64,000 nt of DNA. Source: Arcobacter acticola (lineage in GTDB: Bacteria > Campylobacterota > Campylobacteria > Campylobacterales > Arcobacteraceae). Positions 22,818 through 46,732 of the stretch are shown here, piece after piece. A model generated the notes under the pieces. The model made no database searches and was not told the DNA's origin. It worked only from the letters and a program-made list of their open reading frames with translations. The translations under genes were made by a program, and so were the position numbers. The stretch is taken from NCBI RefSeq assembly GCF_013177675.1, contig NZ_CP042652.1:2728001-2792000 (forward strand). Direction: 5' to 3'. Within the stretch, counting starts at the first letter, position 1; each line of letters starts with the position of its first letter.

Positions 22818-24161
22818 GGGAACCTCTAAAAATACCTTTTAAAGCTCCCAACTTTTACTTTTTTTGATTTTTAAAAAATCTCAGCCCAATTCTAACTGAA
22901 CTTTACTAAGAATTTTGTGGAAATCACCCTAATATTTTGGATATTTCATCCATTTCCCAACTCTTTTCATATCAATTTTACCTTTTGTAATCTAACCATC
23001 TGTTCGTATCTGACTAAGTTGTAGGTAAGGTTCGTAAGTCCTATTGTGGACTTTATCCTATCTATTCCAATTGAGAGAAGATTAAGTGCATTATGCATTT
23101 GAGTTGTAAGTGTTCCAAATATATGTTCAACTCTTACTCTTGTTTTAGAGTGTTTATAATTTTCTTTATGCTGGGCATTGGTTAAGGGTTTGTTTCTGTA
23201 GGCTCTTTTGATAACTTTTGATTTCACATTTTTACTTTCGAGATATTGCTCAGTCTCTTCAGATTTATAAGCACTATCAGCATAGAGGGTATTATCATCT
23301 CCATCTATCAAATCTTTAACCACTTGTGAATCATGGGTTGAAGCTGGCGTCACTTCATATTTAGTGATAATTTTAGTTTTCTGATCTGAGGCTACATGAT
23401 CTTTATATCCATATTCTCTTTGACCTCCTTTTGTTGTCCATCTTGCATCACAATCTTTTTGAGCTTTTTTATTTGGATTGTCTTCAAAGCTTTGTGGCAT
23501 TTTATCCTCTTTGATTTGTTTATTTTCATCTCTTGTATTTCTTTGTTTGGGTACATTTACAAATGAAGCATCAACGATTGTCCCCTCTTTGGCAACTATT
23601 CCATTTGAGATAAGTTTAGAGGTAAATAGTTCAAATAATTTTTTGGATAAACCTTTCTCTTTTAGTTGCTCTTTAAACAACCATATAGTCTTTTCATCTG
23701 GTACATCATCACCGATTTGCAATCCTAAAAAATCTAAAAATGATAATCTATCTTTGATCTGAAATTCTGTTTGTTCATCTGAAAGATTATAATATCGTTG
23801 AAGTATTAAAATTTTAAACATTAGCAATTTATCGTATGGCTTTCTTCCTGCATTTGACTTTCTATCCTCTTTTTCTAAAGCTGATTCAATTGTTTCTCTA
23901 AACATCTCCCAATCAATAATCTTGTTTAGTTTTTGTAGCGGTGGTTGATGTTTATTGATTTTTTCCAATTGAAATTCGTAGTCAAATAGTCCTGCCATTT
24001 TTTAACCTTTGTACCTATATTTATATAGATATTTTAGCTAAAAAGTCCTACAAAAAGCCTTACATAAAGGGTTTTGTCGCTTTATTGCAAAGTATACATC
24101 ATCAGTGATTTTATGAATATTTTCAATTTTTATGAATATTGACTAATTTTTAGAGGTGCCC
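22818..24161. mobile_element. IS5-type insertion sequence (1344 bp)
   Basis: The ends are inverted repeats GGGAACCTCTAAAAAT on the left and GGGCACCTCTAAAAAT (complement strand) on the right, one mismatch in 16. TTAA flanks both sides. It contains one intact transposase gene. It splits the start of the solute-binding sensor kinase gene. Confidence 0.93.
22967..23998 (-). CDS. IS5-family transposase
   Basis: A 343-residue DDE transposase with Asp143 (TIVDASF), Asp241 (TLYADSAYKSEE) and Glu291 (RVRVEHIFG), and the usual N-terminal helical region ending in RKPYDKLLMFKIL. The GDDVPDEKTIWLF motif before the first Asp is typical of the IS5 group. It has full length, one frame, ATG at 23996-23998 and no visible damage. 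Confidence 0.94.
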   Translation of the reverse strand: MAGLFDYEFQLEKINKHQPPLQKLNKIIDWEMFRETIESALEKEDRKSNAGRKPYDKLLMFKILILQRYYNLSDEQTEFQIKDRLSFLDFLGLQIGDDVPDEKTIWLFKEQLKEKGLSKKLFELFTSKLISNGIVAKEGTIVDASFVNVPKQRNTRDENKQIKEDKMPQSFEDNPNKKAQKDCDARWTTKGGQREYGYKDHVASDQKTKIITKYEVTPASTHDSQVVKDLIDGDDNTLYADSAYKSEETEQYLESKNVKSKVIKRAYRNKPLTNAQHKENYKHSKTRVRVEHIFGTLTTQMHNALNLLSIGIDRIKSTIGLTNLTYNLVRYEQMVRLQKVKLI

Positions 24162-24298: not shown

Positions 24299-24418
24299 AA
24301 AAAAAAAGCTTCTTTTACAAGAAGCTTTTTTTCTAAGGAGAACAAAATTTATAATCTAAGTTTAAAGGTTCGCGGCTTTTAAACTTTTTAAGAAGATTCG
24401 CATTTCCTCTTAAGTTAT
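24299..24418 (-). ncRNA. Small-RNA candidate, copy 1
   Basis: About 120 nt with its own promoter, two hairpins and a terminator, closely matching copy 2 at 28879-28991. The -10 TATACT (24425-24430) predicts a 5' end near 24418. Hairpin A is 24388-24395 with 24406-24413 (7 of 8 pairs); hairpin B is a 9-bp stem, 24358-24366 with 24378-24386, with an 11-nt loop identical in both copies. All loops contain GCGAA on the RNA strand. The linker at 24334-24346 reads TTTGTTCTCCTTA in the RNA, complementary to a Shine-Dalgarno. No convincing reading frame is shared by the copies. Confidence 0.7.
24301..24332 (-). terminator. Terminator of small-RNA copy 1
   Basis: A 14-bp stem (AAAAAAAGCTTCTT with its complement) and a TTAC loop. 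On the minus strand it ends in nine T, on the plus strand in seven, so it is strongest for the minus-strand RNA. Confidence 0.88.
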
Positions 24419-24424
24419 ATAGAC

Positions 24425-24467
24425 AGTATAATATCCGAGCATTAACTAAACTATAATCAATAGTTAA
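24425..24467 (-). promoter_or_regulatory. Promoter of small-RNA copy 1 with shared operator
   Basis: On the minus strand the operator at 24467-24442 reads TTAACTA-TTGATTATAGTT-TAGTTAA: two 7-bp inverted half-sites around a 12-bp spacer. Exactly 11 nt later comes the -10 hexamer TATACT. The same spacing occurs at 28998-29040 and 43314-43356. The operator takes the place of the -35 box, as expected for a class of activator sites. Confidence 0.68.
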
Positions 24468-24479
24468 TAAATAATTAAC

Positions 24480-25784
24480 TTAAGATACAATTTCATCTAA
24501 TCGCTCTAATATCTCTTTAAATAAGGGTCTTTTATTAGGGATTTCACTTAAACATGATATTTGTAATTTCAATAAAGCATCTTTTATTTTTTCACTTTTA
24601 TTATCTTCCTTTGATAAAACCAATAAATCTTCAATCAAACATCCAAAAGCTCTTACTTCTAAATGTTCTAAGGCGTTATGCATTTGCAAATCTTCTGCTT
24701 CATAATATGATGCTCCACCAAAATCACCTAAAATACTATTATCATTTTTATCTATCATAATATTATGTGCATAAAAATCACCATGCATTATATTTCGTTC
24801 ATGCATATGAACAGCAGCATTTGCCATTCCTTTTAGAATTTTTAAACAAGATTGAAGTGAGAGTTTAAAGTTTTCTTTATAAACATCCCTTGTACAAGTC
24901 TCAAAACTAGGAGGCAATCCTAAGTTTGAAAAAGAAGATGGAATTAGTTCTAACATCAATACATCTTTATTTTGGGGATGATTTACTACTTGAGCTAAAA
25001 CATCAATAAGATTTTCATGTACACCCATAGAGATATTTATATCCATTTCTTCTTGGGGTAAACCATCTGATGTCATATCTCCTTTAAATACTTTTATAGC
25101 AACTTCTTTATTTTCATATATTGCTTTATAAATATTCCCAGAAGCACCCTCCCCTAATAGTTCTTTTATTTCTAATTCATTCCATGAAATTATTTGCAAT
25201 TTTGTATTAGAGTTTGGATGTTTTTTACAAAAAGGGTTTCCACTATATGCAAGCCATGAAAGTTTTGGTAATGAAAGTAAAATATTAGGGAAAGAGCTAA
25301 GTTTATTTGCAGAAATTCTTAAAAGTTCTAAATTTTTACAATTACTAATACTAGAAGGTAAAAACGTTAATTGATTTCCTGAAATCATAAATTTTTGAAG
25401 TAAAGATAAATCACCAATAGACTCAGGTATAGCTTGCAAATTGTTATCAGTTAATATTAACCATCTTGTACTAAGAGGTAATGAATTTTCTTCAAATATT
25501 TCAATATGATTATTTCTTATTCCAATCATTGATAAAACAGGAAGTTTAGCTAATACTTTTGGAACATGATTAAATTGATTATTTGATAAAAAAAGTCTTT
25601 TTAGTTTTTTAAATCTATAAAAATCATCTGGCAAAGAAGATAGATTATTATCAGTTAAATCCAAAACTTCCAAGCTATCTTCTAAGGTATATAATTCAGA
25701 AGGAAAGATATCAAGACTACATGCTATTTTGATATGTGTTGAGTTTTTTAATTTGCCAGATTTCAGTTCTTTTAGTGTTTCCAT
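24480..25784 (-). CDS. Leucine-rich-repeat protein kinase
   Basis: A 434-residue cytoplasmic protein with no signal peptide. Residues 35-180 are about seven leucine-rich repeats (LEVLDLTDNNLSSLPDDF, LKRLFLSNNQFNHVPKVL). Residues 205-430 are a eukaryotic-type Ser/Thr kinase: glycine loop GEGASG (211-216), Lys231 in EVAIKVF, catalytic loop HGDFYAHN with Asp336, and DFG at 354-356. The kinase looks catalytically complete. Target unknown. Its stop is 13 bp from the operator of small-RNA copy 1, and both are read in the same direction. Confidence 0.88.
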   Translation of the reverse strand: METLKELKSGKLKNSTHIKIACSLDIFPSELYTLEDSLEVLDLTDNNLSSLPDDFYRFKKLKRLFLSNNQFNHVPKVLAKLPVLSMIGIRNNHIEIFEENSLPLSTRWLILTDNNLQAIPESIGDLSLLQKFMISGNQLTFLPSSISNCKNLELLRISANKLSSFPNILLSLPKLSWLAYSGNPFCKKHPNSNTKLQIISWNELEIKELLGEGASGNIYKAIYENKEVAIKVFKGDMTSDGLPQEEMDINISMGVHENLIDVLAQVVNHPQNKDVLMLELIPSSFSNLGLPPSFETCTRDVYKENFKLSLQSCLKILKGMANAAVHMHERNIMHGDFYAHNIMIDKNDNSILGDFGGASYYEAEDLQMHNALEHLEVRAFGCLIEDLLVLSKEDNKSEKIKDALLKLQISCLSEIPNKRPLFKEILERLDEIVS

Positions 25785-28878: not shown

Positions 28879-28991
28879 AAAAAAAAAGCTCCTTTTTTCA
28901 AGGAGCTTTTTTGTAAGGAGAACAAATTTTGAAAGTTTAAAGGTTCGCGGCTTTTAAACTTTTTAAGAAGCTTCGCGTTTCTTCTTAATAT
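28879..28991 (-). ncRNA. Small-RNA candidate, copy 2
   Basis: A paralogue of the RNA at 24299-24418. Hairpin A is a perfect 8-bp stem (28963-28970 with 28981-28988, 10-nt loop) and hairpin B a perfect 10-bp stem (28932-28941 with 28953-28962, loop identical to copy 1). The segment TTTGTTCTCCTTA (complement of 28914-28926) is the same in both. Where stems differ between copies, pairing in hairpin A is kept at most positions. The predicted 5' end is near 28991. A 79-codon frame overlaps it but has no counterpart in copy 1. Confidence 0.7.
28882..28912 (-). terminator. Terminator of small-RNA copy 2
   Basis: A 13-bp stem (AAAAAAGCTCCTT with its complement, TTTTC-type loop). Nine T follow on the minus strand. 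The stem sequence differs from copy 1 (GCTCCTT against GCTTCTT), but both arms changed together, so pairing is preserved. Confidence 0.88.
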
Positions 28992-28997
28992 AAAGTA

Positions 28998-29040
28998 ATT
29001 ATAATAGACCACGATTAACTGAAATACAATCAATAGTTAA
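28998..29040 (-). promoter_or_regulatory. Promoter of small-RNA copy 2 with shared operator
   Basis: Operator on the minus strand, 29040-29015: TTAACTA-TTGATTGTATTT-CAGTTAA, then 11 nt, then a perfect -10 TATAAT (complement of 28998-29003). Half-sites, 12-bp spacer and 11-nt gap match copy 1 and the htrA promoter. Confidence 0.7.
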
Positions 29041-29093
29041 CAGAAGGTTAATTTGCTAATAAATACCATATAATATGGAGTAATAAAAAGCAA

Positions 29094-29900
29094 TTATTTA
29101 GTTTTCAGGTTATTTTCTATTAAAAATTTAAGCTCACCTATTTCTGCTCTTAATTGTCTTATCTCATCATTTACATGTATTTCATTTGAATGAACTTCTT
29201 CTAAAATCGTTTCTTCTTCTTTTTTATTTAATATAGCCATTGCATCAACAATGATTGCCACAACCAAATTTATCATAACAAAAGTTACAACAAATATAAA
29301 AGGAACAAAGAAGACCCATGCATATGGATATACTTCCATTACAGGTCTTACAATTCCCATAGACCATGATTCTAAAGTCATAACTTGAAATAAAGTATAA
29401 AAAGATTCTCCTAATGTTCCAAACCATTCAGGAAACTTCTCAGAAAAAAGCTGTGTTGCCATAATTGCAAATATATAAAAAAACAAAGTCATTAATGCAA
29501 TTACAGATAACATTCCAGGAATTACACTAATTAAAGCTGAAACTATTTTCTTCATTTGAGGTACAGCAGTAATAAGTCTAAATAATCTTAGTACTCTTAA
29601 AACCCTTACTATTTCAAAACCTGCACTTGTTGGAATTAATGATATAGAAACAACAAAGAAATCAAATAAACTCCATGGATCTTTGAAAAAAGAAGTTCTA
29701 TAAACATAAATTCTAAGTGCTATTTCTATTGTAAATATTGTTATAACTATTTGATTAAATAATAAAGCATAATCTCCAAAACTCAACATAAATGATTTAG
29801 AAGTTTCTAATCCCATAGTAATACCATTTAAGATAATCAAATAAATAATAAATTTTGTAAATAAATTACTCTCCACAAAATCTTTTATTTTTGTATTCAT
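29094..29900 (-). CDS. Voltage-gated sodium channel of the NavAb type
   Basis: A 268-residue single-domain channel with six helices, S1-S4 voltage sensor and S5-S6 pore, which assembles as a tetramer. S4 carries Arg99, Arg102, Arg105 and Arg108. The selectivity filter is TLESWS with Glu177, the same residue numbers as in the structurally known NavAb. S6 ([19 protein letters not shown]) is followed by an acidic neck and a C-terminal coiled coil (ELKFLIEN). It starts at ATG 29898-29900. It is an orthologue of NavAb as judged by motif and spacing. Confidence 0.95.
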
Positions 29901-41063: not shown

Positions 41064-41139
41064 TGGAGGAGGTAGTCGGACTCGAACCAACGCATGTCGG
41101 ATTTGCAATCCGAGGCATTACCAGCTTTGCTATACCTCC
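41064..41139 (-). tRNA. tRNA-Cys(GCA)
   Basis: A 76-nt tRNA with encoded CCA. Acceptor GGAGGTA/TACCTCC, anticodon loop TTGCAAA between GGA/TCC pairs, anticodon GCA; T loop GTTCGAGTC. It is the presumed integration site of the neighbouring element, whose 3' end sequence is partly repeated at 37203. Confidence 0.96.
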
Positions 41140-41206
41140 AACAGAAATGTATAGTGGTTTATAAATCACATAAATTGAAAAAAGTTAGATGATTTATTTT
41201 AAATAA

Positions 41207-41295
41207 TGGCAGAGGGCAAGGGATTCGAACCCTCGGAGGCTTTCACCTCGCCGGTTTTCAAAACCGGTACGATAGACCAACTCTGTCAACCCTCT
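41207..41295 (-). tRNA. tRNA-Ser(UGA)
   Basis: An 89-nt class II tRNA with encoded CCA. Anticodon stem CCGGT/ACCGG, loop TTTGAAA, anticodon TGA. A long variable arm (CGAGGTGAAAGCCTCCG) and T loop GTTCGAATC are clear. Confidence 0.95.
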
Positions 41296-41304
41296 ACATT
41301 ATAA

Positions 41305-41391
41305 TGGTGCGAATGATCGGAATCGAACCGATACTCCGAAACCGGAATTGGATTTTAAGTCCAACGCGTCTACCTATTCCGCCACACTCGC
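41305..41391 (-). tRNA. tRNA-Leu(UAA)
   Basis: An 87-nt class II tRNA with encoded CCA. Acceptor GCGAGTG pairs with the 3' CATTCGC. The anticodon stem TTGGA/TCCAA encloses CTTAAAA, anticodon TAA. It is the most upstream of three tRNA genes read together toward the element. Confidence 0.95.
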
Positions 41392-43276: not shown

Positions 43277-43304
43277 AATAAATAGGGAGGAACCCCTATT
43301 TATT
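43277..43304 (+). terminator. Stem-loop after ilvD
   Basis: AATAAATAGGG (43277-43287) pairs fully with CCCTATTTATT (43294-43304), 6-nt loop. The T-run is short. The htrA operator begins 10 bp later. Confidence 0.6.
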
Positions 43305-43313
43305 AACCATGCA

Positions 43314-43356
43314 TTAACTATTGATTGGAAAATAGTTTACTCTTTTAGCTTAGAAT
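43314..43356 (+). promoter_or_regulatory. htrA promoter with operator shared with the two small RNAs
   Basis: TTAACTA (43314-43320), 12-nt spacer starting TTGATT, TAGTTTA (43333-43339), 11 nt, then -10 TAGAAT (43351-43356). The layout is the same to the base as in the promoters of the two small-RNA genes. Confidence 0.66.
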
Positions 43357-43390: not shown

Positions 43391-44824
43391 GTGAAGAAAA
43401 AACTTTTGATTATTTCTACATTAATTGCAACTCAACTATTTGCAAAAACTATAGATTTTGAGATGATGGATAAAAATCCAGTAAGAGTTACACCAAATTC
43501 AAATAATGAAATTTTATCTTTTAATGACAGTGTTAAGAATTCAGTAAATTCAATAGTAAATATTTCCGCAAAAAAACACGTTGATACAAATTTAGATTCA
43601 GTTCCATTACAACAAATGTTCAACGATCCATTATTTAAAAGATTTTTTGGTGATCAATTTGGTGAAAATCAATTTAAACAAAATAGAGTTCAAAGATCTT
43701 TAGGATCAGGTGTTATTGTTTCAAAAGAGGGATATATTGTAACTAATAATCATGTTATTGAAAATGCAGATGAAATCACAGTTACAATTGGTGATGATAC
43801 AACTGAATATAATGGAAAATTAATAGGTCGTGATGCAGACAGTGATATGGCTGTTATTAAAATCGAAACAGAAAAAACATTAACTCCAATCAAAATTGGT
43901 GATTCAAATAGTTTAAAAGTAGGAGATCTAATTTTTGCAATTGGAAATCCATTTGGTATTGGAAGCACAGTTACTCAAGGAATTATCTCAGCTTTAAATA
44001 AAAATAAAGTTGGAATTAATAGATATGAAAACTATATTCAAACAGATGCTTCAATAAACCCTGGAAACTCAGGTGGTGCCTTAGTTGATAGTCGTGGTGC
44101 TTTAATTGGTATTAATACAGCTATTATTTCTAAAAGTGGTGGAAATAATGGAATTGGCTTTGCAATACCAATTGCAATGGTTCAAGATGTTGTTACAAAA
44201 CTAGTAGCAGATGGAAAAGTAACACGTGGTTATTTAGGTGTAGCTATTGGTGATGTTGATAATGAACTAGCAAAAGTTTATAAAAGAAAAGAAGGTGCTT
44301 TAATTTTAGATATATCAGCTGATACTCCAGCTTCTAAATATGGACTAAAAAGAGGTGACTTAATTTATGCAATAAATGGAAAAGCTGTAAAAGATAGAAC
44401 TTCTTTACAAAATACAATTGCATCTTTTAAACCTGAAGAGAAAATTGTACTTCAAGTTGAAAGAGATAGAAAAGATATTGATTTAAATATTGTATTAGGA
44501 GATAGAACTTCAAGTCTTGCAGAAGTTCAAACGGATAGTTCAGTACCTGTTCTTGGTGGATTAAAATTAAGTTTAATTGATGCAGAAAATCAAAAGAAAT
44601 TTAGATTACCAACAGAAATAACAGGAATACTGATTTCAGATGTTGAGCCTAAATCACAAGCTGAGGAATCAGGTTTTCAATCAGGCGATGTTATTATTCA
44701 AATTGAAGACATTGAAATCAAAACGTTTGCAAATATTGATGCAGCATTAAAAAAATATAAAGAAAAATATAAAAGAGTTTATGTAAATAGATATGGTCAA
44801 ACTATTCTATTCGTAACACAATAA
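43391..44824 (+). CDS. htrA: Periplasmic serine protease/chaperone HtrA (DegP)
   Basis: A 477-residue envelope quality-control protease with GTG start and a signal peptide ending at about residue 18 (TQLFA). The triad is His121 (NNHVIENAD), Asp152 (DSDMAVIKI) and Ser227 (NPGNSGGAL). Two PDZ domains follow (RGYLGVAIGDVDN from about residue 275 and GILISDVEPKSQAEESG from about 415). It is the first gene of an operon with a response regulator and a kinase, the order seen around htrA-cprR-cprS in Campylobacter jejuni. Confidence 0.95.
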   Translation: MKKKLLIISTLIATQLFAKTIDFEMMDKNPVRVTPNSNNEILSFNDSVKNSVNSIVNISAKKHVDTNLDSVPLQQMFNDPLFKRFFGDQFGENQFKQNRVQRSLGSGVIVSKEGYIVTNNHVIENADEITVTIGDDTTEYNGKLIGRDADSDMAVIKIETEKTLTPIKIGDSNSLKVGDLIFAIGNPFGIGSTVTQGIISALNKNKVGINRYENYIQTDASINPGNSGGALVDSRGALIGINTAIISKSGGNNGIGFAIPIAMVQDVVTKLVADGKVTRGYLGVAIGDVDNELAKVYKRKEGALILDISADTPASKYGLKRGDLIYAINGKAVKDRTSLQNTIASFKPEEKIVLQVERDRKDIDLNIVLGDRTSSLAEVQTDSSVPVLGGLKLSLIDAENQKKFRLPTEITGILISDVEPKSQAEESGFQSGDVIIQIEDIEIKTFANIDAALKKYKEKYKRVYVNRYGQTILFVTQ

Positions 44825-44837
44825 AGGATTTCCCATT
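44823..44837 (+). promoter_or_regulatory. Shine-Dalgarno deciding an AUU start for the response regulator
   Basis: AAAGGA (44823-44828) is six bases before ATT at 44835. The next in-frame ATG (44850) would delete the first beta strand of the receiver domain. Confidence 0.65.
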
Positions 44838-45512
44838 ACAAAAGTACTTATGATAGAAGATGATTTAGAATTAGCTCAAATCATCTCAGATTATTTAAAA
44901 TCATTTGATATAGAAGTTACAAATACAGATAGTCCATATAATGGTCTATCTATGTTAAATGTACACAAAGACTATCAACTTATTATTTTAGATTTAACTC
45001 TTCCTGAAATTGATGGACTTGAATTAATTCCAAAAATCAGAGAAAAGTCAAATATACCTATTATCATAAGTTCAGCTCGGGATGACATTCTCGATAAAGT
45101 TATGGGATTAGAAAGAGGGGCAGATGATTATCTTCCAAAGCCTTATAACCCAAGAGAACTTCAAGCTAGAATTAAAACTATTCTAAAAAGAGTTGAAACA
45201 AAAAACGAAACAAAAAAAGTTGAAACAAACTCTATGTTTCAAATTAAAGAAAGTGATATGCAAATATTATTTAAAGACACTGCACTTACTTTAACACTTG
45301 CAGAATATGATATTTTGAAATTACTTATTCAAAGAAATCATGGTGTAGTTGCACGTGAAGATTTTATTTATGCAAGTGATAATATAGAAGATGATTCATC
45401 ACTTAAAAATATTGATGTAATTATTTCAAGAATTAGAACAAAGCTAGGGAAAATCGATCATAACAACACACATATTAAATCAGTAAGAGGTATCGGATAT
45501 CAGTTAATATGA
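44835..45512 (+). CDS. OmpR-family response regulator (CprR-like), AUU start
   Basis: A 225-residue regulator. From ATT 44835 the product begins TKVLMIEDDLELAQ after the initiator, giving the complete first strand and acidic pocket; the phosphoacceptor is then Asp53 (LIILDLTLPEIDG). The usual Thr/Ser-Ala position and Lys (YLPKPYNPREL) are present. A winged-helix DNA-binding domain follows (LTLAEYDILKLLIQ, ISRIRTKLGK, VRGIGYQL). It sits 10 bp after htrA and overlaps the kinase gene by four bases. It is a candidate activator of the shared operator at 43314, 24442 and 29015. Confidence 0.85.
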   Translation: MTKVLMIEDDLELAQIISDYLKSFDIEVTNTDSPYNGLSMLNVHKDYQLIILDLTLPEIDGLELIPKIREKSNIPIIISSARDDILDKVMGLERGADDYLPKPYNPRELQARIKTILKRVETKNETKKVETNSMFQIKESDMQILFKDTALTLTLAEYDILKLLIQRNHGVVAREDFIYASDNIEDDSSLKNIDVIISRIRTKLGKIDHNNTHIKSVRGIGYQLI

Positions 45513-46732
45513 TTAGAAATGTTTCCATATCGACTTTTATTAATATTATTTTTTCATTAGCTCTTGTATCTATTTTTATAACTTTTGGAATGTTTATTAA
45601 TCATGATAAACAAAAACATGAGATTGCTTTACAAAATAGATATGAGTTGATTGCAGAAAACTTTTTAAGTTCATTTCAAAATCAACCAACCGTTGAATCT
45701 TTACTTGCTTTATATAAGAAATTTAAAGTTACGCCTATTGAAGATAGAGATAGAAAATTAAAAATCATTAAAAATGCACAAGAATTAACAATAACACAAA
45801 ACTATTTAGGAACTTATAGGGTATATAAATATGCTGATAAATACTACATTTACGTACAGCAATATGGTTATAACTTAATGCTAAAAGATTCTGACAACAA
45901 CAACTACAGTATGGCTTTTATAATCGTTGGATTTGTTATATCTTTACTTACATTTTTATTTTTATATGAAGTTCTAAAAAGAAAATTAAGACCTTTAAAA
46001 ATATTAAATAAACAAATTATTGAGTTTTCAAATGGAAATAAAGACATAAAACTAAATTATACAAGTACAGATGAAATTGGTACCATTGCAAAAAGTTTTA
46101 ATGAAGCTATAAATATCATAAATAATCAATCTAAATCAAAAGATTTATTTATGAGAAATATGATGCATGAGCTTAAAACCCCTATTACTAAGGCTATGTT
46201 TATTGCAGAAACTTTAAATGATGACAATAAAAGAGAAACTCTTCAAAGAGCATTTAAAAGAATGGATGATATTATCAAAGAGCTAGCGACTGTTGAAAAG
46301 CTAACTTCTAAAAATACTATGATTTATAAAGAAGAAACATCTTTTTTTAATATCTATACAAGAACCTTAGAAATCATGATGATAAATCCTGAGAATATAG
46401 CTACTAAAATAAGAGATTTCAAATTTGAAGTTGATGTATCTATGATGTCAATTGCACTAAAAAATTTAATTGATAATGCTATAAAATTCTCTCCAAATAA
46501 AAAAGCAATTATAAATGCAAATAAAGAAAGAATAGAAATCATTTCTTTAGGAGAACCTTTGAATAATGAACTTGCATACTATACAGAAGCGTTCTCTCAA
46601 GAAGAAAAAAGAAGTGATGGATTCGGGCTTGGTCTTTATATTGTAAAAACTATTGTATGTTTACATGGATATAAACTTGAATATAAATACGAGGGTGGAA
46701 GAAACTTTTTTATCATAAATATGATGAAATAG
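45509..46732 (+). CDS. Sensor histidine kinase (CprS-like)
   Basis: A 407-residue kinase with TM1 at about 8-27, a periplasmic domain of about 110 residues, TM2 at 135-155, a HAMP domain and an H-box MMHELKTPITKAM. N-box LKNLIDNAIKFSPN and the G-box GFGLGLYIVK are present, with a shortened ATP-lid region. It is read with the regulator upstream, so the pair forms a two-component system controlling envelope functions, by analogy with CprRS. Confidence 0.88.
   Translation: MIRNVSISTFINIIFSLALVSIFITFGMFINHDKQKHEIALQNRYELIAENFLSSFQNQPTVESLLALYKKFKVTPIEDRDRKLKIIKNAQELTITQNYLGTYRVYKYADKYYIYVQQYGYNLMLKDSDNNNYSMAFIIVGFVISLLTFLFLYEVLKRKLRPLKILNKQIIEFSNGNKDIKLNYTSTDEIGTIAKSFNEAINIINNQSKSKDLFMRNMMHELKTPITKAMFIAETLNDDNKRETLQRAFKRMDDIIKELATVEKLTSKNTMIYKEETSFFNIYTRTLEIMMINPENIATKIRDFKFEVDVSMMSIALKNLIDNAIKFSPNKKAIINANKERIEIISLGEPLNNELAYYTEAFSQEEKRSDGFGLGLYIVKTIVCLHGYKLEYKYEGGRNFFIINMMK

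Follow-up and report, generated by a model that had tools for sequence, protein, structure and literature searches.

Does one operator govern htrA and several small RNAs?

The stretch of Arcobacter acticola DNA analyzed here (the window; 64,000 nucleotides, positions 2,728,001-2,792,000 of a genome consisting of a single contig of 3,019,071 bases) carries three strikingly similar promoters, one in front of the protease gene htrA and two in front of small RNA (sRNA) genes. This raises the question of whether they share an operator and, if so, which protein would bind it. A first-pass annotation had described the sites, at 43314-43356 (+), 24467-24425 (-) and 29040-28998 (-), as two 7-nt arms separated by 12 nt and followed at a fixed distance by a -10 hexamer, and re-reading of the sequence at all three positions matched that description. 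The core TTAACTATTGATT-N6-YAGTTWA occurred exactly three times in the genome, at the three window sites, and not at all in the reversed control. When the -10 hexamer was included and up to three mismatches were allowed, the genome scan returned four sites against none in the controls, the fourth also lying upstream of an sRNA-like unit. In the window, a loose version of the motif showed no enrichment, with 10 matches at up to two mismatches where 12.4 were expected. The equal spacing of the three sites had been taken as unlikely to arise by chance; the observation is confirmed, with the qualification that sRNA1 and sRNA2 are paralogous by alignment, so that their two operators are not independent. 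Sites of the form TTAACTATTGTTTTAAGTGCAGTTTA, common among the two-mismatch matches, were rejected as coding conservation: the one at locus L108 lies inside a coding sequence, that of a gene we take to be NADH-dehydrogenase-subunit-like, and L109 has the same gene.

Table 1. Coordinates of the operators, promoters and genes discussed in the text (window positions unless stated otherwise)
Feature	Position	Strand	Remarks
htrA operator	43302..43340	+	ATTAAC 43302-43307, ATTAAC 43313-43318, weak ATTGGA 43324-43329, GTTTAC 43335-43340; four-repeat pattern with 0 mismatches
htrA promoter -10, TAGAAT	43351..43356	+	10 nt after repeat 4
htrA, Do/DegP-family periplasmic serine protease, GTG start	43391..44824	+	Pfam Trypsin_2 and PDZ; TIGR02037, 458.9 bits (cut-off 416.2)
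OmpR/PhoB-type response regulator, proposed operator binder	44850..45512	+	Response_reg and Trans_reg_C; nearest solved structure BaeR 4b09
Sensor histidine kinase, ArsS family	45509..46732	+	NCBIfam NF038389, 405.2 bits (cut-off 250)
sRNA1 operator	24441..24479	-	Repeats 24479-24474, 24468-24463, 24457-24452 (weak), 24446-24441
sRNA1 -10, TATACT	24425..24430	-	Sequence and sRNA-promoter matrix
sRNA1 (type A)	24299..24419	-	Fold z -4.0; model match; covariation in family
sRNA2 operator	29014..29052	-	Repeats 29052-29047, 29041-29036, 29030-29025 (weak), 29019-29014
sRNA2 -10, TATAAT	28998..29003	-	Sequence and sRNA-promoter matrix
sRNA2 (type A), paralogue of sRNA1	28879..28992	-	Fold z -2.9; alignment; model match
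sRNA3 (type B)	786,770 of genome		Upstream of UvrD-like helicase gene
sRNA4	1,917,071 of genome		Between lysine-decarboxylase-like and HAD-like hydrolase genes
Calcineurin-like metallophosphoesterase gene	G000:C1:2980272-2981450 (L139)		Operator repeats upstream

The RNAs carry conserved hairpins and exposed anti-Shine-Dalgarno linkers

Type A RNAs have two hairpins with GCGAA loops, a single-stranded anti-Shine-Dalgarno (anti-SD) linker (UUUGUUCUCCUUA in the window, UUUGUUUCCUUGUGUG elsewhere) and an intrinsic terminator. Type B RNAs have a single 5′ hairpin (with a GACGCAGCGA-like loop in the model set), the linker UUUUUAUGUUUCCUUGU and a terminator, and this linker, which hardly varies among 41 sequences, is more conserved than any other part of the type. 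In most copies of sRNA4 the hairpin has a UUGCGAUG loop, and the linker reads CUCCUCC or a near form. A C-rich, anti-SD linker is thus present in every sRNA, and sequence analysis places these RNAs with trans-acting anti-SD sRNAs in having their own promoter, a terminator, a conserved structure and an exposed anti-SD stretch. The families were described by covariance models derived from examples chosen for their operators (type A, 13 sequences, the window pair among them; type B, 7); the models cover the transcribed part only and are blind to the promoter. Two-sided changes were found in 14 of the 32 model pairs of type B and 14 of the 20 of type A, a count reached by none of 500 shuffles, in alignments fitted to the models, which favors the counts. 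Rfam returned no sRNA match at the gathering threshold, and a permissive-threshold search gave sub-threshold matches only. Type A is multicopy in several genomes. The two members of a pair lie about 0.2 kb apart, in tandem, in L124, L216, L217 and L218 and about 1 kb apart in L127 and L215, with a separate promoter for each copy.

Several features adjoin these genes. A DDE transposase gene just downstream of sRNA1 (window 22967-23998, -) may be connected with a duplication of that locus, and the gene at 24480-25784 (-), which adjoins sRNA1, encodes a bacterial fusion of leucine-rich-repeat and protein-kinase domains. Just upstream of sRNA2 lies a gene for a voltage-gated-channel-like protein of 268 aa (Ion_trans; 29094-29900, -). 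Downstream of sRNA4, the HAD-like frame (L138:1676-2113) has 145 aa against the 178 positions of the domain model and is possibly truncated in this genome. In genome G086, an operator-driven unit (L137, ~982-746) encodes an RNA unlike types A and B, with a linker containing AUUCUCCUUUUG, which both models missed. Rfam also identified a cluster of three tRNA genes in the window (41067-41391, -).

Because the linkers are complementary to Shine-Dalgarno sequences, translational repression is the proposed mode of action. Duplex energies between the sRNA linkers and the 57 gene starts of the window gave no clear outlier target. A genome search with the complement of the type B linker (up to two mismatches) found 11 sites, one of them the RNA itself, fewer than the 31 of the reversed control; a single site, at dapE with two mismatches, coincided with a ribosome-binding site. 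Neither search yielded a convincing mRNA target.

The operator consists of four 11-bp direct repeats

The promoter collection comprised 83 model matches (42 type A, 41 type B), matches found by both models being counted once and one type A match (G068:C1:1932248, E 8.1e-6) being left out. Sixty-three matches had been absent from model building, and 60 of these were usable after three had been dropped for a truncated contig or the lack of a good -10. Since the 63 include near-identical genomes, the profile was down-weighted to an effective number of 39, while the position counts given below are unweighted. When the 60 promoters were anchored on the -10 alone, RTTAAY appeared at -49, -38, -27 (weakly) and -16; relative to the -10, TTWA started at -15 in 59, at -37 in 54 and at -48 in 47 of them. 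The operator is therefore made up of four tandem 11-bp direct repeats, RTTWAY-N5, of which the third is weak and the fourth ends 10 nt before the -10. This is the layout of OmpR/PhoB-type response regulators, whose tandem direct repeats lie about 11 bp apart and close to the -10.

Autocorrelation of the profile peaked at lags of 11 (0.137) and 22 (0.114), compared with 0.035 and 0.019 at lags of 10 and 12. The inverted symmetry of the profile was also high (0.118 versus 0.137 for the direct form), because the half-site GTTAAC is self-complementary. A palindrome as the basic unit was rejected: self-complementary GTTAAC makes copies 2 and 4 look inverted, and the RTTTAC variants keep one direction. 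Position 6 of the repeat was C or T; G accounted for 9% in copy 2 and for no more than a few per cent in copies 1 and 4. The 7-12-7 palindrome of the first-pass annotation, which had seen copies 2 and 4 and missed copy 1, thus gives way to four direct repeats that begin 12 nt further upstream.

The operator is conserved in front of htrA in relatives

The annotation had also stated that the htrA operon encodes an OmpR-type regulator, and the two domains of the protein confirm it (Table 1). Of the start given for it, 44835 is an ATT codon and the first ATG is at 44850, although an upstream start at 44835 is possible. The receiver Asp of the regulator was conserved in 80 relatives. Its recognition helix was nearly invariant in the closer ones; the putative helix, NIDVIISRIRTKL, was nearly invariant where the operator is present. 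The nearest regulator matches came from Aliarcobacter and Arcobacter genomes; the named genomes of the family searched include Arcobacter caeni, Poseidonibacter and Malaciobacter, and were Arcobacteraceae where looked up.

A matrix trained only on sRNA promoters gave the htrA operator of the window a score of 32.2, the next best non-site scoring 11.0. The htrA upstream region was measurable in 52 of the 80 regulator loci. With the same matrix, the htrA promoter ranked top of its locus in all 40 Arcobacteraceae-like loci (HtrA >51% identity); among 12 loci from further afield it did so in 4. The 12 distant htrA-regulator-kinase loci, which include a Sulfurospirillum arcachonense strain, have a regulator about 54% identical. 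In 8 of them, two repeats and a -10 with at least 5 of 6 matches, in the arrangement RTTWAY-N5-RTTWAY-N10-(-10), lay upstream of htrA, and none was found elsewhere in 253,788 positions. The two-repeat element was absent from 26 loci that have a related regulator with no htrA found beside it, some of these being short on the upstream side. In a stricter test, a matrix made from type B promoters alone scored the window sRNA sites at 42.1 and 29.0, well above random windows (maximum 19.2, n=60), whereas the htrA site, at 16.8, fell within the random range. The htrA operator has thus diverged from the rest of the set: its fourth copy reads GTTTAC and its -10 TAGAAT.

Genome-wide, the operator marks six sites

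Allowing at most one mismatch, the four-repeat pattern with its -10 was found at six sites in the genome, corresponding to the htrA-regulator-kinase operon, four sRNA genes, two of which (sRNA3 and sRNA4) lie outside the window, and the metallophosphoesterase gene. The five sites with two mismatches lacked a convincing promoter of the operator layout, and at up to three mismatches there was no excess (29 matches against 27 in reversed controls). The genome-wide scan proposed with the original motif therefore did not find it to be common at random positions, the exact core being present three times and the four-repeat pattern six. The suggestion of a single operator for htrA and two sRNAs is supported and extends, in this genome, to four sRNAs and one further gene, and beyond it to the family. 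Further operator-driven sRNA families are likely to exist.

The ATG of the metallophosphoesterase gene begins 5 nt after the -10, so that its mRNA is predicted to be leaderless or nearly so, and this short spacing is kept in most genomes of the genus. In 22 of 30 genomes the operator outranked every other site of the locus; copy 1 was mostly absent, leaving copies 2-4 as the usual form. Because the resemblance of the protein to LpxG/YaeI falls below curated cut-offs, its possible link to the envelope is only suggestive. Counterparts of sRNA4 were found in 15 other genomes of the genus (31 searched, best match E ≤ 1.6e-5), and in all 15 the operator was the best site on the match strand.

The sRNAs occur only together with the htrA-linked regulator

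In 104 genomes of the family, the covariance models found type A in 43 and type B in 54 at E ≤ 0.01. At E ≤ 1e-5, sRNAs were present in 64 of the 104 genomes, that is, in 64 of the 79 with an orthologue of the regulator and in none of the 25 without, counting as orthologues proteins of about 70% identity or more (G052, at 59%, was counted as without). Fifteen genomes with the regulator had no sRNA model match. A naive Fisher test, which ignores phylogeny, gave 5e-14 for this co-occurrence. Many of the 25 genomes lacking the regulator do retain a paralogue (46-50% identity). At E ≤ 0.01, weak sRNA matches (E 0.001-0.006) appeared in 6 of the 25, and these were taken for terminators. The co-occurrence, combined with the conservation of the operator at the operon's own promoter, favors the encoded regulator as the putative binder. 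With the tandem 11-bp direct repeats as a further argument, control of the operator by the OmpR-type protein encoded with htrA is well supported, if by circumstantial evidence, and the shared element is probably the binding site of this CprR/ArsR-type, OmpR-family response regulator.

Other explanations

We consider it unlikely that a different OmpR-family protein, either an HP1043/CosR/CemR orthologue or a paralogous response regulator, binds the repeats and that the htrA-linked regulator is merely one of its targets. HP1043 likewise recognizes 11-bp direct repeats, and a paralogue of 44-50% identity occurs in most genomes of the family. However, the HP1043/CosR half-site, given as TTTAAG-N5-TTTAAG in the accessible text of PMC5253667, differs from the one found here, in which position 6 is C or T. 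Moreover, genomes that have the paralogue and lack the htrA-linked regulator gave no sRNA matches at E ≤ 1e-5, and the repeats were absent at regulator loci without htrA.

The sRNAs might instead be 5′ leaders or attenuators of the genes that follow them, an idea to which we attach a low probability. In this genome a UvrD-like helicase gene follows type B and a gene for a HAD-like hydrolase follows sRNA4; L247 and L248 show the beginning of a gene resembling the latter, and both window RNAs are co-directional with the next gene. Yet strong terminators that show compensatory changes close the units, type A is found as tandem pairs 0.2 kb apart, and the downstream genes have no common theme. It is harder still to believe that the promoters resemble one another through duplication of a single promoter, or by chance in AT-rich DNA, with no common regulator. 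Such an origin would fit the paralogy of sRNA1 and sRNA2 and the failure of loosened motif searches to exceed their controls (29 vs 27 at up to three mismatches). But the operator precedes sequences that bear no relation to one another (htrA, sRNA4, type B and the metallophosphoesterase gene), and the phase of the repeats and their distance from the -10 are nevertheless kept across genera or across the genus.

Proposed mechanism

If the htrA-linked regulator is the binder, the ArsS-family kinase would sense envelope stress and phosphorylate it. Two regulator dimers could then bind the repeats from one side of the helix, covering the -35 region, and recruit RNA polymerase to a promoter that has a -10 and no evident -35. 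HtrA and the sensor pair would both be raised, amounting to positive autoregulation, and the same regulator would turn on several short RNAs that end in terminators. The linkers of these RNAs, single-stranded and C-rich, may pair with the Shine-Dalgarno regions of target mRNAs and block translation, the net effect being repair of the periplasm together with reduced synthesis of envelope or other proteins. Binding by the regulator and the targets of the sRNAs are what we infer here; the identity of the regulator is likely, and the sRNA mechanism plausible.

The best reading of these data would be an envelope-stress regulon of the CprRS/ArsRS family that comprises HtrA and multicopy sRNAs and is convergent with the streptococcal CiaRH-csRNA system. 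Arcobacteraceae probably evolved, independently of CiaRH, a two-component regulon in which an htrA-linked CprR/ArsR-type regulator acts on four RTTWAY 11-bp repeats to drive its own expression, that of HtrA and that of three anti-SD sRNA families, of which one is multicopy. An isolated motif thereby becomes a regulon that can be tested and whose operator is defined, in a family whose members include gut organisms of humans and animals. If the reading is correct, it would also provide an operator consensus for a regulator family that has no clear one.

Comparison with known systems

In Escherichia coli, a single envelope-stress signal acting through sigma-E raises the periplasmic protease DegP together with the repressing sRNAs MicA and RybB. 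The logic proposed here, protease plus repressing sRNAs, is similar, but it would be run by a two-component system in place of an ECF sigma factor and with unrelated RNAs; outer-membrane targets belong to the E. coli case. If real, the Arcobacteraceae regulon would give Campylobacterota an equivalent of the DegP-plus-sRNA response that does without sigma-E.

Within this phylum, the CprRS system presumably adjoins htrA in Campylobacter jejuni; at the Campylobacter majalis locus (L051), no htrA lies next to the regulator-kinase pair. The available portions of the literature on CprRS (PMC4518328, PMC9449129) describe an OmpR-like regulator with its kinase that influence envelope genes, htrA among them; CprR is reported there to be essential, with little known of its regulon. 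Those portions mention neither sRNAs nor an operator consensus for CprRS. A 2026 paper, as far as its accessible text goes, reports that the Crp-Fnr protein NssR binds the C. jejuni htrA promoter and that a pull-down in the same study yielded CosR, NssR, Fur and Cj1000 as predicted transcription factors, and not CprR (PMC13189099), which argues against assuming the same CprR control of htrA in that species. The kinase described here belongs to the ArsS family, as in ArsRS of Helicobacter pylori. H. pylori ArsR, which serves the acid response, is described in the part of PMC11162790 available as having no clear consensus site and preferring long AT stretches. The repeats now offer a concrete sequence to look for in relatives.

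None of the titles and abstracts retrieved in searches of the open-access literature described an Arcobacteraceae sRNA regulon or an RTTWAY-N5 operator. A GC-content screen of intergenic regions in Arcobacter sp. L left most novel, Arcobacter-confined regions unnamed, according to the accessible text (PMC6429828), and these may overlap with the sRNAs described here.

The closest parallel is found in streptococci, where, as stated in the accessible parts of PMC3091779 and PMC8186281, CiaR recognizes NTTAAG-N5-TTTAAG at a distance of 10 nt from the -10 and controls htrA together with 2-6 csRNAs that bear anti-SD sequences. Both systems have an OmpR-type regulator, hexamer-N5 repeats 10 nt before the -10, htrA and several terminator-ended anti-SD RNAs. 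By contrast, the Arcobacteraceae belong to another phylum, their half-site is RTTWAY and not TTTAAG (position 6 is C or T, where the CiaR site has an essential G), the repeats number four against two, and htrA shares an operon with the regulator and kinase. The RNAs, too, are unrelated to csRNAs, the Rfam csRNA family RF02379 scoring 23.4 bits against a gathering threshold of 57. Because half-site, repeat number, phylum and RNA sequences all differ, the Arcobacteraceae system works like CiaRH-csRNA but is not a member of it; the same wiring would thus have arisen convergently in two phyla.
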